From Acidobacteriota bacterium (GTDB lineage Bacteria; Acidobacteriota; Thermoanaerobaculia; Multivoradales; Multivoraceae): 64,000 nucleotides of DNA. The notes beneath the pieces were generated by a model, which saw nothing but the letters and a program-made list of their open reading frames with translations, searched no databases and was not told where the DNA came from. The position numbers and the translations under genes were made by a program. This document shows positions 19,679-24,944 of the stretch, piece after piece. The number at the start of each line of letters is the position of its first letter. Position 1 is the first letter of the stretch. The DNA lies in contig JAJCXN010000048.1 in NCBI GenBank assembly GCA_029263415.1, positions 139,169 through 203,168 on the forward strand, given 5' to 3'.

Positions 19679-20512
19679 ATGACCATCAATATACTGTCAT
19701 CCGTCAAAGATGCCACCACCTCCGACTTTGTGTATTCAGCACTCAGTTTCTACGGCCGTCACCGTGGAGGTTCGCTCTGCGGTTCATGGTTTGTTAGCGC
19801 CCTCGATCCGTTGGGGGTGAAACCAGGGGCAATTCGCCAGACGCTGTATCGAATGGAGCACTCGGGAGCGCTGGAGACGACGCGCGTCGGCCGAAACAAG
19901 TTCTACGCACCGTCTCCCACTACTCTGGCGATCATGGATGCAGGGCTTGAACGAATCTGGCAAGAGCCAGAGGAGTGGGACGGCCGCTGGACCCTGGTCC
20001 AGTTCAGTTTCGCAGCCGAAGACCGGACTGAGCGCGATCTTGCGCGAGAGGTGTTGCAAGCTGAAGGCTTCGGCGCTCTTGGCCCTGGCCTCTACCTACA
20101 CCCGCACGATCGGAGCCAGCGGATTCTCCAGGCGCTTCGCGCGATGAAGCTCGACCAGAATGTGACGAGCTTTCGCGCTCGACTTACCAACGGAGAGGAT
20201 TCCTCTCTCGCAGACCGAATCTGGGATACCAACGCCACCGCACACGCCTATAGGTGTTTTCTCGAGCGCTTTCAAGAATTCGCGGGTAAGGGTGTAACGG
20301 CGTGCACAGACGCTGAGGCCTTTGCGCTTCGCTTTGCGGTGGTCTTCAGTTTCCTACGCATTTCCTGGGAGGACCCCGAGCTGCCAGCAGCCTTGTCTGG
20401 CGAGGAACCCGTCGGTTCCCGCGCTCGGGCGCTCACAAAGAAGCTCTACGAAACCCTGACTGTCCCTGCCCTTCGTTATTGCGACCAGATCACGGCCTCT
20501 GTAGGCGGCTAG
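19679..20512 (+). CDS. PaaX-family transcriptional regulator
   Basis: The protein has 277 residues from ATG 19679. A much longer frame open from 19199 is only antisense to the esterase and is not used. The N-terminal winged helix is visible (FVYSALSFYGRHRGGSLCGSW...VKPGAIRQTLYRMEHSGALE), followed by the PaaX central WDGRWTLVQFSF core and the C-terminal domain with FRISWEDPELP-like sequence. PaaX represses phenylacetate genes and is released by phenylacetyl-CoA; this homologue has no phenylacetate catabolic genes nearby, so its ligand is probably a different acyl-CoA or ester product. The adjacent divergent thioesterase-like hydrolase is the likely target, together with autoregulation. Confidence 0.85.
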   Translation: MTINILSSVKDATTSDFVYSALSFYGRHRGGSLCGSWFVSALDPLGVKPGAIRQTLYRMEHSGALETTRVGRNKFYAPSPTTLAIMDAGLERIWQEPEEWDGRWTLVQFSFAAEDRTERDLAREVLQAEGFGALGPGLYLHPHDRSQRILQALRAMKLDQNVTSFRARLTNGEDSSLADRIWDTNATAHAYRCFLERFQEFAGKGVTACTDAEAFALRFAVVFSFLRISWEDPELPAALSGEEPVGSRARALTKKLYETLTVPALRYCDQITASVGG

Positions 20513-20721: not shown

Positions 20722-21213
20722 CTACGGGGATTCGCCGACCGGCGGAAAGGGACCGAAGAAGCCGACGATCAGCTTCAGGCGACCCTCTTCGTCGAGTTCA
20801 CCATAGTCCATGCCCGGAGAGAGCACAGTCTTGCCGTCAGGGCCCACCATCTTCCAAGCGAACCTCAAGTACTTGCCGTGATGCACGTCGACGCTACTGT
20901 CGATCTGGATCGATGGACCGTTACCGGCACTGCGTCCAGTCAAGAAGCCACCAATGTGCTGCACCAGAGCCTCACGTCCGTCGACGTACGCGGTTGGGTC
21001 GGTGTAAACGCCGTCCTCGGCCCAAGCCACTTCCAGAATGGCGCGTCGCTTGGCCTCGTCAGGCTCACTCCAAGCTGAGCCGTAGAGATCAACCGCCTCC
21101 TGGGCGTTCGCCGGTTGAGCGGTGAGCTCGGCGGGAGCGAACGTCAAAGCAGCGACGGAGCAGAGCAAGCCAGGATTGATGCGAAGTCGACCGATGGAAA
21201 CGGACTGGAACAC
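20722..21213 (-). CDS. Secreted NTF2/SnoaL-like protein
   Basis: The chosen start is GTG 21213 (163 residues) because AAGGAG lies 6 nt before it; the frame opens earlier at TTG 21237. A signal peptide ends near ELTAQPANA. The rest is a SnoaL/NTF2-like fold: AVDLYGSAWSEPDEAKRRAILE, AEDGVYTDPT, a glycine-rich turn, and alternating strands ending FGPFPPVG. Such small cone-fold proteins bind or isomerise small ligands, or have no enzymatic role. The gene is convergent with paaX and divergent from the reductive-dehalogenase-like gene. No catalytic residues can be assigned with confidence. Confidence 0.7.
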   Translation of the reverse strand: MFQSVSIGRLRINPGLLCSVAALTFAPAELTAQPANAQEAVDLYGSAWSEPDEAKRRAILEVAWAEDGVYTDPTAYVDGREALVQHIGGFLTGRSAGNGPSIQIDSSVDVHHGKYLRFAWKMVGPDGKTVLSPGMDYGELDEEGRLKLIVGFFGPFPPVGESP

Positions 21214-21455
21214 GTGGTTCTCCTTCAGGTTGTGCAATCGGAGCTCGCGGATCGAGAGCGCAGGTCGCAGTCTACTGGCTCAGAACAGCGGAGCCCTTCT
21301 CGACACAGCCAGAGCCAGAGCTGAAGCCAGAGCCACAACTACGGGGACTGAGGCTTTGAGCCGCAGTGCCCAGTAGAATCCAAGCCGACTCGGTCTACAG
21401 CGTCTCGGTCAACAAAGTCAGTGCCAACAGCGTCAGTCAACAGTAGGACACCCAT

Positions 21456-22646
21456 ATGTCGGTGAGTTCAAAGTGTCAGACCTGTCCTGGGCCGTGCGCG
21501 ACCGATGAAGAGGCGGGCTTTAGTGTCGCGCCCGACTACACTCGCTTCAGCCAGAAGCGAGACATCTTCTGTCGCTCGCAGTGGGATCCAGCTGTTCACA
21601 GCGCGGCCAGTGATCGGTTCTATGAGTCGTACCGTCGCCCGCTACCTCAATGGCGCAATGTGGACGGCTACTCGCAGCGAGACTTTGCGGTGCGCAATGC
21701 GGGTTGGCACGTCGCGGACATCTTTGCCGAACGGCTAGAGCCCGAACGGCGGGAAGGGTTTCTGGACTTCCTAAGCGCGCACCGAGAGGGTTCCCAGACC
21801 AAGTTTGAAGGGAGCGACGCCTCCGCTACAGCGCGCGAGATCAAAAAGGTCGCGAGGCTGTTTGGCGCGGACCTGGTCGGCATCGCACGGTACGACGAAC
21901 GCTGGGTGTACTCGCACAAGTATTCCGCCGTCGATTCGGACGAGACACCAATGGACCTAGAAGAGGACTACTCGTCGGTGATCGTGGTGTGCCACGAAAT
22001 GGACCATGACTTACTAACAACGGTACCTTCGGCGCTCAGCGGAGCGGCTACAGGAGTCGGTTACTCCAAGGACGTGGTGACGCTGCTGGCCCTCGCTCAG
22101 TACATCCGGAACTTGGGCTACCGCGCGACCGCGAGCATGAACGACACCGCTTCCAGCATTCCCTACGCGATCAAGGCGGGGCTGGGCGAGTACGGTCGAC
22201 ATGGCCTGCTAATCGCTCCCGGCCTGGGACCGCGGTTGCGGATTGGCAAGATCTTCACTGATCTTCCCTTGGCACACGATCGGCCAATCCGTTTCGGAGT
22301 CAAGGACTTCTGTGCAGTATGCCGCCGCTGCAGCGACGCTTGTCCGCCGGGAGCAATCGCTAAGGGCTCGCCGAGCGACTCAGTCCACAACATCTCAAAC
22401 GCTGAGGGACTAGTGAAATGGACCACCGATGCCGAGAAGTGCTTCGACTTTTGGGCAAAGCAAGTCACCGACTGCTCGATCTGCATTCGCGTCTGCCCTT
22501 ACAACCGCGACTATCCTAGGTGGCTCAACAGGATCCGGTTCAGACTGATGGGGAGCGTGCTCCGCCACGTCATGCTGTGGCTGGATAACGCGTTCGGCGG
22601 TGGCAAGAGGAGGCCGCCTAGGCGCTGGTGGCCGAACGCTACTTGA
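21456..22646 (+). CDS. Reductive-dehalogenase-like corrinoid/iron-sulfur protein, no Tat signal
   Basis: A 396-residue cytoplasmic-looking protein. Features of RdhA are present in order: an N-terminal YTRFSQKRDIFCRSQWDP block, a corrinoid-site core with GVGYSKDVV and NDTASSIPYAIKAGLGEYGR, LGPRLRIGKIFTDLPL, and two 4Fe-4S motifs. Cluster one is C286, C289, C292, C296; cluster two is C329, C340, C343, C347. An extra N-terminal Cys group (CQTCPGPC, about residues 7-14) is unusual. There is no twin-arginine signal and no RdhB anchor gene, so it is not a classic organohalide-respiring enzyme; a catabolic or housekeeping role is more likely. QueG shares the ferredoxin part but not the WDP block. 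The ATG start has AGGA 8 nt upstream. Confidence 0.85.
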   Translation: MSVSSKCQTCPGPCATDEEAGFSVAPDYTRFSQKRDIFCRSQWDPAVHSAASDRFYESYRRPLPQWRNVDGYSQRDFAVRNAGWHVADIFAERLEPERREGFLDFLSAHREGSQTKFEGSDASATAREIKKVARLFGADLVGIARYDERWVYSHKYSAVDSDETPMDLEEDYSSVIVVCHEMDHDLLTTVPSALSGAATGVGYSKDVVTLLALAQYIRNLGYRATASMNDTASSIPYAIKAGLGEYGRHGLLIAPGLGPRLRIGKIFTDLPLAHDRPIRFGVKDFCAVCRRCSDACPPGAIAKGSPSDSVHNISNAEGLVKWTTDAEKCFDFWAKQVTDCSICIRVCPYNRDYPRWLNRIRFRLMGSVLRHVMLWLDNAFGGGKRRPPRRWWPNAT

Positions 22647-22744
22647 GCTTGTGGGACTCAAAGGGCGCACAATGCCCAGGCAATTCCTTGCCGCTCGTTT
22701 ATCATCTGCGGAAGGGACCCCCACTGATGAGACCAGGAGACTCG

Positions 22745-23365
22745 ATGGATGATCGCGAACAGATCGGCAATCCCCGCCCGGCCGAGGACAACCAAGAGGC
22801 TGAGCCGGGCCCCGTCGTCCCGTCGCCGATCGAACCGTCACGGGTCGTCCCGCCACTGGTCGCCCCGGCCCTCGTCGACGGTGAGGAGCACCACGTCGAT
22901 CCGCGTACGGTGCGAGTCGGTCGCATCATCGGCTTCTTGGTAGTACTCCCCATATCCATGGTCCCGCTGATCCTCTTTACTATCGGCTGGGGTGTCGGAG
23001 GCATTCCGGGTTCGGTCTATCTTGGCATCCTTACGGCTTGGCTGTTGATCATCAGTTCGTTGTTGCTGTTGACCTACCGCTGGCCCGCGGCACGCTACAG
23101 GCACCTGCGTTACCTGGTCGAGGAAGACGGCCTACGCATCCGGCGCGGCGTCTTCTGGCGGAAAGTGATCTGGATTCCGATCACCCGAGTCCAGCACACT
23201 GATGTCTCGCAGGGACCGATTCAGCGAAAGTACAGCCTGGGAACGCTCACAGTTCACACCGCCGGCACCGCGGGGGCGTCTATCTCTGTGGAGGGACTTG
23301 AGCACGGGATTGCCTCACGCTTAAGCGATCACCTCCGACCCGCCCACGCCGCCGATGCAAACTGA
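22745..23365 (+). CDS. Bacterial PH-domain (bPH2) membrane protein, YdbS-like
   Basis: The start is set at ATG 22745 because AGGAG lies 5 nt upstream; this gives 206 residues. The N-terminus is Pro-rich and acidic, two transmembrane helices follow (IIGFLVVLPISMVPLILF and LLIISSLLLLTY), then one bPH2 domain whose core is RYLVEEDGLRIRRGVFWR...IPITRVQHTDVSQGPIQRKYSLGTLTVHTAGT. The stop overlaps the start of the next bPH2 gene by 11 bp, so translation is coupled. YdbS and YdbT homologues always travel together and act at the membrane; in Bacillus they affect resistance to antimicrobial peptides. Exact role here unknown. Confidence 0.85.
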   Translation: MDDREQIGNPRPAEDNQEAEPGPVVPSPIEPSRVVPPLVAPALVDGEEHHVDPRTVRVGRIIGFLVVLPISMVPLILFTIGWGVGGIPGSVYLGILTAWLLIISSLLLLTYRWPAARYRHLRYLVEEDGLRIRRGVFWRKVIWIPITRVQHTDVSQGPIQRKYSLGTLTVHTAGTAGASISVEGLEHGIASRLSDHLRPAHAADAN

Positions 23366-24482
23366 AGTCCGTCGGCTTCACCGCTGGTCTTGGCCGTTTA
23401 TTGCAGCGGGAACGATCCGGGCGCTGGCCGTTCCGGTGGTCGGCGCCGTTTTTGCCTCCCGCGGCGTCTTGTTGTCACGACTGGACCTGTTGTCCGTACT
23501 CGTCATCGTGTCAGCTTTGGTCTACGCGTTCATCAGACAGCGGGCTTACAACTATCGCTTCACGGATAACGAGCTGGTGGTACGCGACGGCCTGTTGACG
23601 AAGAACGTACGGCACATTGCCTACAAGCGCATCCACAACGTTGCGCTTGTGCGCAACCCGATCCACCGCATGCTGGGAGTCACCACCGCGCGGATCGAAA
23701 CCGCGGCGGGCGGAAAGCCCGAGGCATTATTGCGAGTGGTGTCGCTAGAGGCCGCCGAGGATTTGAGGCGCTACACGCTGGGCGAGAAGAGCAAGGCTGA
23801 CTCGCCAGACTCCCCACATACGGCCGGACCAGACACGGCAGTGGGACATGCGACAAGGGAGGCCGCCCCTCTCTTGCAGGTTCCGGATGGCGAGCTCTTG
23901 CGACTCGGCCTGATCAGCAACCGGGGCCTTCTGGTGGTCGCGGCGGCAATGGGTGTCGCATCCCAGGTGCAGTGGTGGGAACAGGACTGGTTCAAGGATC
24001 AGGACTGGTTGCGAATCTACGAGAGTGTCCGCGCAAACGCACCCGATTGGGCCAGCTGGTTGTTCGATTCGGGGCCTCTGATCGGTGGGTTGTTCGTTGG
24101 GCTGTCCGCGCTCCTGCTAGTGCTCGTCGTGCTCCGCGTGTTCTCGATGGCCTGGTATCTGGTGCGGTATCGGGGCTTCACCCTGCACCAGAAAGGCCAG
24201 GACCTGCGCGCGCAGTACGGGCTGTGGCCAGAGGTCTCGTCGCTGATACCGGTTCATCGGATTCAGCTTGTGACGGTCAGTGCCTCGCTGCTACATCGGT
24301 GGTTCGGTCGAGCTTCGATCGATCTTGAAACGGCCGGGGCCACTGATACCAACTCCGGGTTGGACGGCGCGACCGGCATCGCCAACACGAGGCAATGGCT
24401 GGCACCAATTCTAGAGGTCGATCGGGCGCATGCTTTGGTACGCGAGGTAATGCCCGAGGTCGACATCGACGGGGTGGAGTAG
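23355..24482 (+). CDS. YdbT-like membrane protein, first two bPH2 domains, ended by in-frame TAG
   Basis: A 375-residue product with two pairs of transmembrane helices and two bPH2 domains: YRFTDNELVVRDGLLTKN...IPYKRIHNV-like near residues 68-150, and FTLHQKGQDLRAQYGL..SSLIPVHRIQLVTVSASLLHR near 275-325. YdbT proteins normally have three bPH2 domains and about 490 residues. Here the frame stops at TAG 24480-24482, and the third domain continues in the same frame directly after it. The context VE-stop-KPIEARAVRR fits the usual W-x-P-x-x-x-R-A-V-R-R linker, so TAG may derive from TGG (Trp) by one change. It overlaps the YdbS gene by 11 bp. Confidence 0.85.
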   Translation: MQTEVRRLHRWSWPFIAAGTIRALAVPVVGAVFASRGVLLSRLDLLSVLVIVSALVYAFIRQRAYNYRFTDNELVVRDGLLTKNVRHIAYKRIHNVALVRNPIHRMLGVTTARIETAAGGKPEALLRVVSLEAAEDLRRYTLGEKSKADSPDSPHTAGPDTAVGHATREAAPLLQVPDGELLRLGLISNRGLLVVAAAMGVASQVQWWEQDWFKDQDWLRIYESVRANAPDWASWLFDSGPLIGGLFVGLSALLLVLVVLRVFSMAWYLVRYRGFTLHQKGQDLRAQYGLWPEVSSLIPVHRIQLVTVSASLLHRWFGRASIDLETAGATDTNSGLDGATGIANTRQWLAPILEVDRAHALVREVMPEVDIDGVE

Positions 24483-24944
24483 AAGCCGATCGAGGCGCGG
24501 GCGGTGCGACGGATCGTTAGTCGGTTCGCGATTGCGGTAACGCCGTTCACGGTCGCAATCGCGGCATTGTTTACGCTCGCTCCGATTCCATTGAGTGGAT
24601 GGCATGCGCTGTGGCTACCCTCGGTAGTGCTGAGCACGGCATGGCTGATCACTCGTCAATGGGTTCGGCGCACCGGCTATGCGCTCACCGAGAGCGCCAT
24701 CCTATTCCGCAGCGGCTGGATCGGCCGTCAGATCAGCGCCGTGCGCTTCGTCAATGCGCAAACCGTCTCCATGAGGCAATCACCGTTCGATCGTCGCAAG
24801 CGCATGGCCTCCGTTGCGGTGGATACCGCCGGGGCCGGAGGGTTGGGGCATCGGGTTCACATTCCGTTTTTGGATGTTGAGGTAGCCGAGGGGATTCTGC
24901 GACGGTTGTACGACGAGACCCGGGGCACCGAATTTCGCTGGTAG
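24483..24944 (+). pseudogene. Third bPH2 domain of the YdbT-like gene, after in-frame stop
   Basis: This is the same reading frame as the preceding gene, separated only by TAG. It encodes KPIEARAVRRIVSRF, two transmembrane helices and a complete bPH2 domain (GYALTESAILFRSGWIGRQ...VRFVNAQTVSMRQSPFDRRKRMASVAVDTAGAG), ending EFRW. No other frame damage is seen in the 153 codons, so the interruption is either very recent, a sequencing error, or tolerated by readthrough or reinitiation (an alternative start at 24504 has no strong ribosome site). Confidence 0.75.

Follow-up and report, generated by a model that had tools for sequence, protein, structure and literature searches.

The gene described here lies in a 64,000-nucleotide stretch of DNA from an Acidobacteriota bacterium (the window) and probably encodes a cytosolic, nonrespiratory reductive dehalogenase of the clade that Ros_A3X954 and T7RdhA fit by motif and position. 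At the level of sequence and structural model, the protein shows a dehalogenase fold, eight cluster cysteines, a PceA-like Tyr/Asn/Arg/Trp set, no export signal or anchor, and membership in this clade. By analogy with its kin, a halophenol-like class of substrate is suggested. Judging from its sequence, the protein would be a known kind of enzyme with a CxxCxxxC motif as a feature of its subclade; neither an N-terminal CxxCxxxC nor the acidobacterial and gemmatimonad clade as such was found described in the CC-licensed PMC literature, a collection that excludes subscription journals. The gene, its motifs, and its neighbors are listed in Table 1.

Table 1. Positions in the window of the putative dehalogenase gene, its motifs and candidate active-site residues, and its neighbors
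Feature	Position	Strand	Basis
rdhA-like gene, putative stand-alone cytosolic reductive dehalogenase, 396 aa	21456..22646	+	ORF; TIGR02486; AF2 model; fold match
N-terminal CxxCxxxC, C7/C10/C14, subclade specific	21474..21497	+	8/79 family rows
Tyr203, proton donor candidate, equivalent to S. multivorans PceA Tyr246 and NpRdhA Tyr426	22062..22064	+	Alignment
Asn229, equivalent to PceA Asn272	22140..22142	+	Alignment; invariant 56/56
Arg262, equivalent to PceA Arg305 (Lys488 in NpRdhA)	22239..22241	+	Alignment; invariant 56/56
FeS1 motif CxxCxxCxxxCP, C286-P297	22311..22346	+	Four Cys kept in 79/79 family rows
FeS2, C329 plus CxxCxxxCP C340-P348, Trp333 between	22440..22499	+	Four Cys kept in 79/79 family rows
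Divergent upstream neighbor, weak SnoaL-like protein	20722..21237	-	21.2 bits, below cut-off
PaaX-like repressor, start inferred within longer ORF	19772..20512	+	PaaX_M 61.2 bits and PaaX_C 49.7 bits, above cut-off
Three codirectional bacterial PH-domain (bPH_2) genes directly downstream	22628..24944	+	Domain matches

The open reading frame starts with ATG and occupies exactly the interval given in the table. The nearest in-frame stop upstream is just three sense codons away from this ATG, so no signal peptide has been missed through a late start call. Differences at codon positions 1, 2, and 3 amount to 19, 17, and 57% against locus L002, 20, 19, and 51% against L003, and 28, 22, and 70% against L004, on which basis we consider this a real gene. 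No Rfam model matched anywhere in the window at gathering score. The original prediction, made from the DNA letters, held that the protein lacks both a twin-arginine (Tat) signal and a membrane anchor gene, and both points were borne out. There is no RRxFxK motif, the sole RR pair among the first 80 residues being at position 60, and a hydropathy scan of both strands within 5 kb of the gene found no RdhB-like ORF of 45 to 150 amino acids with at least two hydrophobic stretches. The protein itself has no transmembrane helix; no 19-residue stretch exceeds a hydropathy of 1.6 (maximum, 1.0).

The NCBI reductive-dehalogenase model, TIGR02486, matched the protein at 180.8 bits, passing its curated cut-off of 160.35, and the Pfam Dehalogenase model, PF13486, matched residues 178 to 272 at 22.3 bits, narrowly below its gathering cut-off of 24.3. 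Among proteins of solved structure, tetrachloroethene reductive dehalogenases matched best by sequence (E values of 3.8e-55 and 9.5e-49), followed by NpRdhA and then QueG. The iron-sulfur and core landmarks of RdhA that had been claimed earlier are in place, with both [4Fe-4S] motifs found, FeS1 as C286-x2-C289-x2-C292-x3-C296-P297 and FeS2 as C329...C340-x2-C343-x3-C347-P348, and each of the 79 aligned family members has all eight cluster cysteines. In a 71-row core alignment, Tyr203, Asn229, and Arg262 occur in all 32 family rows, as in PceA, and Trp333 aligns with PceA Trp376 and T7RdhA W343; in the NpRdhA-type rows, Lys488 and Arg552 stand at the positions of Arg262 and Trp333. The PceA and NpRdhA residues are those given in the available parts of PMC5500849 and PMC10463259, the former also describing how S. 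multivorans PceA binds and debrominates bromophenols in its Tyr/Asn/Arg pocket. As aligned, the active site is that of a respiratory PceA-like enzyme, despite the absent export signal.

An AlphaFold2 model built with 56 family sequences (pLDDT, 88.2; pTM, 0.91) was compared with known structures by running VIA-align 2 on Foldseek candidates. The closest fold was that of the menaquinol:organohalide oxidoreductase 8q4h_A (Z, 40.3; rmsd, 2.4; 371 aligned), followed by S. multivorans PceA entries, several of which have halophenols bound (Z, 35 to 37), NpRdhA (Z, 31 to 33), and QueG (Z, 14 to 15). These respiratory enzymes share the fold over nearly the full length and have the same Tyr/Asn/Arg/Trp pocket. 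A lack of corrinoid-binding residues, named beforehand as evidence against a dehalogenase, was not what we found; the model has the dehalogenase fold, and published pocket residues are present in the sequence.

Two studied proteins, Ros_A3X954 and T7RdhA, are putative kin by motif and position, their full sequences standing outside our alignment and tree. The available text of PMC13101508 describes Ros_A3X954, from Roseobacter sp. MED193, as a Tat-less and highly oxygen-sensitive enzyme, with FeS1 (CDICTKCADACP) at residues 283 to 294 and FeS2 (CAICMRVCP) at 337 to 345, that converts 2,6-dibromophenol to 2-bromophenol with a kcat of 1.1 per s and a kcat/KM of 1.5e4 per M per s. According to that text, the screen also included an RDase from an actinomycete that was inactive on the compounds tested, a point against our main reading, and a Pararhodobacter aggregans enzyme, 72% identical to Ros_A3X954, is cited there as acting on 2,4,6-triiodophenol. 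In a family member from Sulfitobacter (L059), the two Ros_A3X954 motifs sit at precisely residues 283 and 337; the second of them, CAICMRVCP, is found at 18 loci among the matches listed, all of them rhodobacterial family members, and in no reference protein. Ros_A3X954 and the window protein are alike in the absence of a Tat signal, in the types and spacing of FeS1 and FeS2, and in the place of PF13486 (residues 174 to 269 in Ros_A3X954 and 178 to 272 in the window protein). The rhodobacterial members lack the N-terminal CxxCxxxC and are only about 44 to 51% identical to the window protein, so the substrate may differ, which counts against our main reading.

For T7RdhA, from Acidimicrobiaceae TMED77, the available portion of PMC10008544 names F47, F64, Y65, Y68, R89, W93, Y213, F340, and W343 as contacts of the cofactor or docked ligand. 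It further describes the expressed protein as PceA-like, with a corrinoid and two Fe-S clusters bound, the docking of T7RdhA with PFOA, and a partial relative, A6RdhA, that is 98% identical to T7RdhA (PMC10008544). All nine pocket residues coincide with residues of the window protein at offsets of -9 or -10; 36 other dehalogenase and QueG proteins have at most three of the first six at any offset. All nine are found in 59 of 88 family entries; the other 29, truncated entries among them, have fewer, which means that the pocket varies to some extent within the clade. The defluorination claim reportedly concerns A6RdhA and comes from separate work. By motif, position, and pocket, the window protein would fit with the cytosolic RdhA proteins of the Ros_A3X954/T7RdhA type.

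The family loci are the best 80 of 101 matching stretches in a genome_contigs scan by close identity, which misses remote members, and the 79-row alignment holds full-length rows only, short or truncated members having been dropped. Among the matches listed are Acidobacteriota, Gemmatimonadota, Marinimicrobia, Gammaproteobacteria (including Halieaceae), and Alphaproteobacteria (Ruegeria, Sulfitobacter, and others). The gene is present in 22 of 72 genomes and 5 of 28 genera of the window's order, and in 22 of 148 genomes of its class. In the tree, the window copy falls in a subclade of acidobacterial and Marinimicrobia members, apart from the copies of genus g2 of its own taxonomic family, a placement that suggests transfer or old paralogy. 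None of eight pattern matches in viral_contigs was a relative, and none of 39 matching plasmid records covered 80% of the query, the annotated ones mostly being QueG or other types of reductive dehalogenase. Some individual records deserve comment. In Ruegeria sp. Alg231-54 (L080:7821-9133), the family gene lies in two overlapping ORFs, being either broken or affected by a sequencing error. Locus L002 (JAHZIX010000040.1) is titled Deltaproteobacteria, and its ORF equals in length and identity the one in G026, which is a genome from the same order as the window, so the title may be wrong. Two genomes of one acidobacterial family, G099 and G299 (loci L116 and L117), have 8 and 7 TIGR02486 matches, six above cut-off in each and some in tandem, and these organisms are possibly organohalide specialists within the Acidobacteriota. 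Reductive dehalogenases have also been reported for the acidobacterial Ca. Sulfomarinibacter in the available text of PMC8528874.

The SnoaL-like, PaaX-like, and bPH_2 neighbors of the window gene are common to no other family locus (within 4.5 kb, trimmed clustering), and no linked electron donor or degradative operon lies around it. If the GTG assigned as the start of the first bPH_2 gene is correct, this gene begins within the end of the dehalogenase gene. The PaaX-like protein matched TIGR02277 at 137.8 bits, below cut-off, and was rejected as a sign of phenylacetate or phenol catabolism, there being no PaaA_PaaC match in the genome. With no match to this paa oxygenase in the genome and no degradative operon at the gene, use of a halogenated substrate as a carbon source found no support. 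An apparent partner at 28 loci proved to be a cluster of mixed shadow ORFs and was gone after trimming. Elsewhere in the family, the dehalogenase gene is followed at acidobacterial loci by a molybdopterin protein of the sulfite-oxidase type (PF00174; cluster c0, 14 members; e.g., L055:9260-10354), an ABC exporter with membrane and ATPase domains lies upstream, mostly directly, at 10 Gemmatimonadota loci (cluster c3; e.g., L012:6024-7877), and DUF885 or DinB proteins recur, as do a pirin and a glyoxalase-like protein in roseobacters. Recurrent neighbors are thus bound to lineages, and we rejected them as functional partners or clues to substrate. The window gene looks like a solitary gene that has moved among settings, as would suit a self-contained activity served by general cytosolic electron carriers.

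Such a wide clade, kept in many lineages with differing neighborhoods, would also fit a general role, that of a corrinoid reductase of the dehalogenase fold whose natural substrate is free of halogen and whose relatives turn over halophenols as a side activity. The fold is common to QueG, which is not a dehalogenase and reduces an epoxide, and the assays of kin described in the available text of PMC13101508 used only chosen organohalide panels. We nevertheless regard a halogen-free substrate as unlikely, given a Tyr/Asn/Arg/Trp set equal to that of halophenol-binding PceA and the kcat/KM of the rhodobacterial relative with 2,6-dibromophenol; the patchy presence in genomes and genera of the order further argues against a core role.

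The phylogeny with respiratory RdhA, catabolic RdhA, and QueG that the original prediction had proposed puts the window protein outside both the QueG and the fused catabolic clades. The 32 family representatives fall on one side of a single branch (support, 96/100), and five QueG rows (100/100) and five fused catabolic rows of the NpRdhA/BhbA type (100/99) form separate clades. An AU test rejected a grouping of the family with the fused type (P = 0.00039, with groups named after seeing the tree); on which dehalogenase group is nearest to the QueG root, the AU test did not separate the candidates (P = 0.47). Some branches of the tree are long (L105, L139, and the QueG rows), forks at the dehalogenase base are open, and the order of the dehalogenase groups is not fixed. 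Like the window protein, NpRdhA, BhbA, and JtRdhA are Tat-less and have a corrinoid/Fe-S core, C-terminal in their case; unlike it, they have a duplicated cobalamin domain, and several have a fused reductase, as described in the available part of PMC10463259, and the NpRdhA-type active site is Tyr/Lys/Arg rather than Tyr/Asn/Arg. The hybrid RdhA proteins (PMC6797604) likewise lack a Tat signal and RdhB but differ in having N-terminal transmembrane helices. The original prediction had offered either a catabolic dehalogenase or a new B12-dependent reductase. What stands of this is a cytosolic, nonrespiratory dehalogenase. The new reductase falls away because enzymes already published fit this clade, and the NpRdhA/BhbA type because of the missing fused reductase, the PceA-type Tyr/Asn/Arg, and the AU result.

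In the best tree, the family is joined with the respiratory rows, though with a support of 64/0; this and the PceA-type active site speak for a respiratory RdhA whose signal has been lost or which takes another export route. We consider this very improbable. Respiratory RdhA proteins are Tat exported with RdhB, and here the Tat motif, a transmembrane helix, and RdhB are all absent; three COX1 cytochrome-oxidase genes in the genome also point to an oxygen-respiring host. A divergent QueG (epoxyqueuosine reductase), with which the protein shares the corrinoid and two-[4Fe-4S] core and a TIGR00276 match over residues 193 to 352, can be dismissed on the score of that match (61.3 bits; cut-off, 200), the lower fold score, the different pocket, and a tree in which the genome's own, separate QueG-like gene (G000:C9) falls in the QueG clade without the window protein.

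Our preferred reading, a cytosolic dehalogenase, calls for a supply of corrinoid. A check for uptake genes found a single cobalamin riboswitch in the window's genome (G000:C51:266037-266196), followed within less than 60 bases by a BtuB-like ORF that matched TIGR01779 over positions 11 to 608 of 614 at 311.9 bits, below the cut-off of 599.7. CobS and CobA/CobO/BtuR had no match in the genome. Together, these observations point to corrinoid salvage, with B12 imported by the host; the QueG-like gene product would need corrinoid too. The cobamide, imported via the riboswitch-controlled BtuB-like receptor, would bind in the base-off state, packed against the proximal [4Fe-4S] cluster. Because the protein has neither a fused nor a linked reductase, we propose that Co(II) would be reduced to Co(I) by low-potential electrons from a cytosolic donor of general use, either ferredoxin or flavodoxin. 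A phenol-like compound carrying bromine or iodine, the most likely substrate, would sit in the aromatic pocket beside Tyr203, which would donate a proton as the halide departs. In vivo, the reaction may serve detoxification or open natural organohalogens to further degradation, rather than respiration. The oxygen sensitivity reported for Ros_A3X954 is odd for an aerobe and counts against this reading, as do the absence of a linked electron donor, degradative gene, or paa oxygenase match and the below-cut-off score of the BtuB-like ORF.

The additional N-terminal cysteine group noticed at the outset was confirmed as C7-x2-C10-x3-C14. It is carried by 8 of 79 family members (the window protein, L002 to L007, and L018), which make up exactly one subclade (support, 99/92), and it lies ahead of the conserved domain, where the model is of low confidence (mean pLDDT of 58 for residues 1 to 10). 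A third metal site at this motif of the window protein is a conjecture. In its fuller form, for which we hold little expectation, the acidobacterial and Marinimicrobia subclade would have gained this site, for an Fe-S cluster or other ion, near the electron-entry face, and it would allow the stand-alone enzyme to accept electrons straight from a carrier in the cytosol, in place of the fused reductase of the NpRdhA type. The subclade offers a simple way to test how a stand-alone dehalogenase obtains its electrons.

Dehalogenases of this kind, single-domain and without a Tat signal but with an active site of the respiratory type, occur in many marine-type lineages, mostly uncultured, where the settings of their genes give no hint of function. 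If all of them act like Ros_A3X954, the dehalogenation of natural bromo- and iodo-organic compounds would be far more widespread among bacteria that respire oxygen than one would suppose from the specialists in organohalide respiration.
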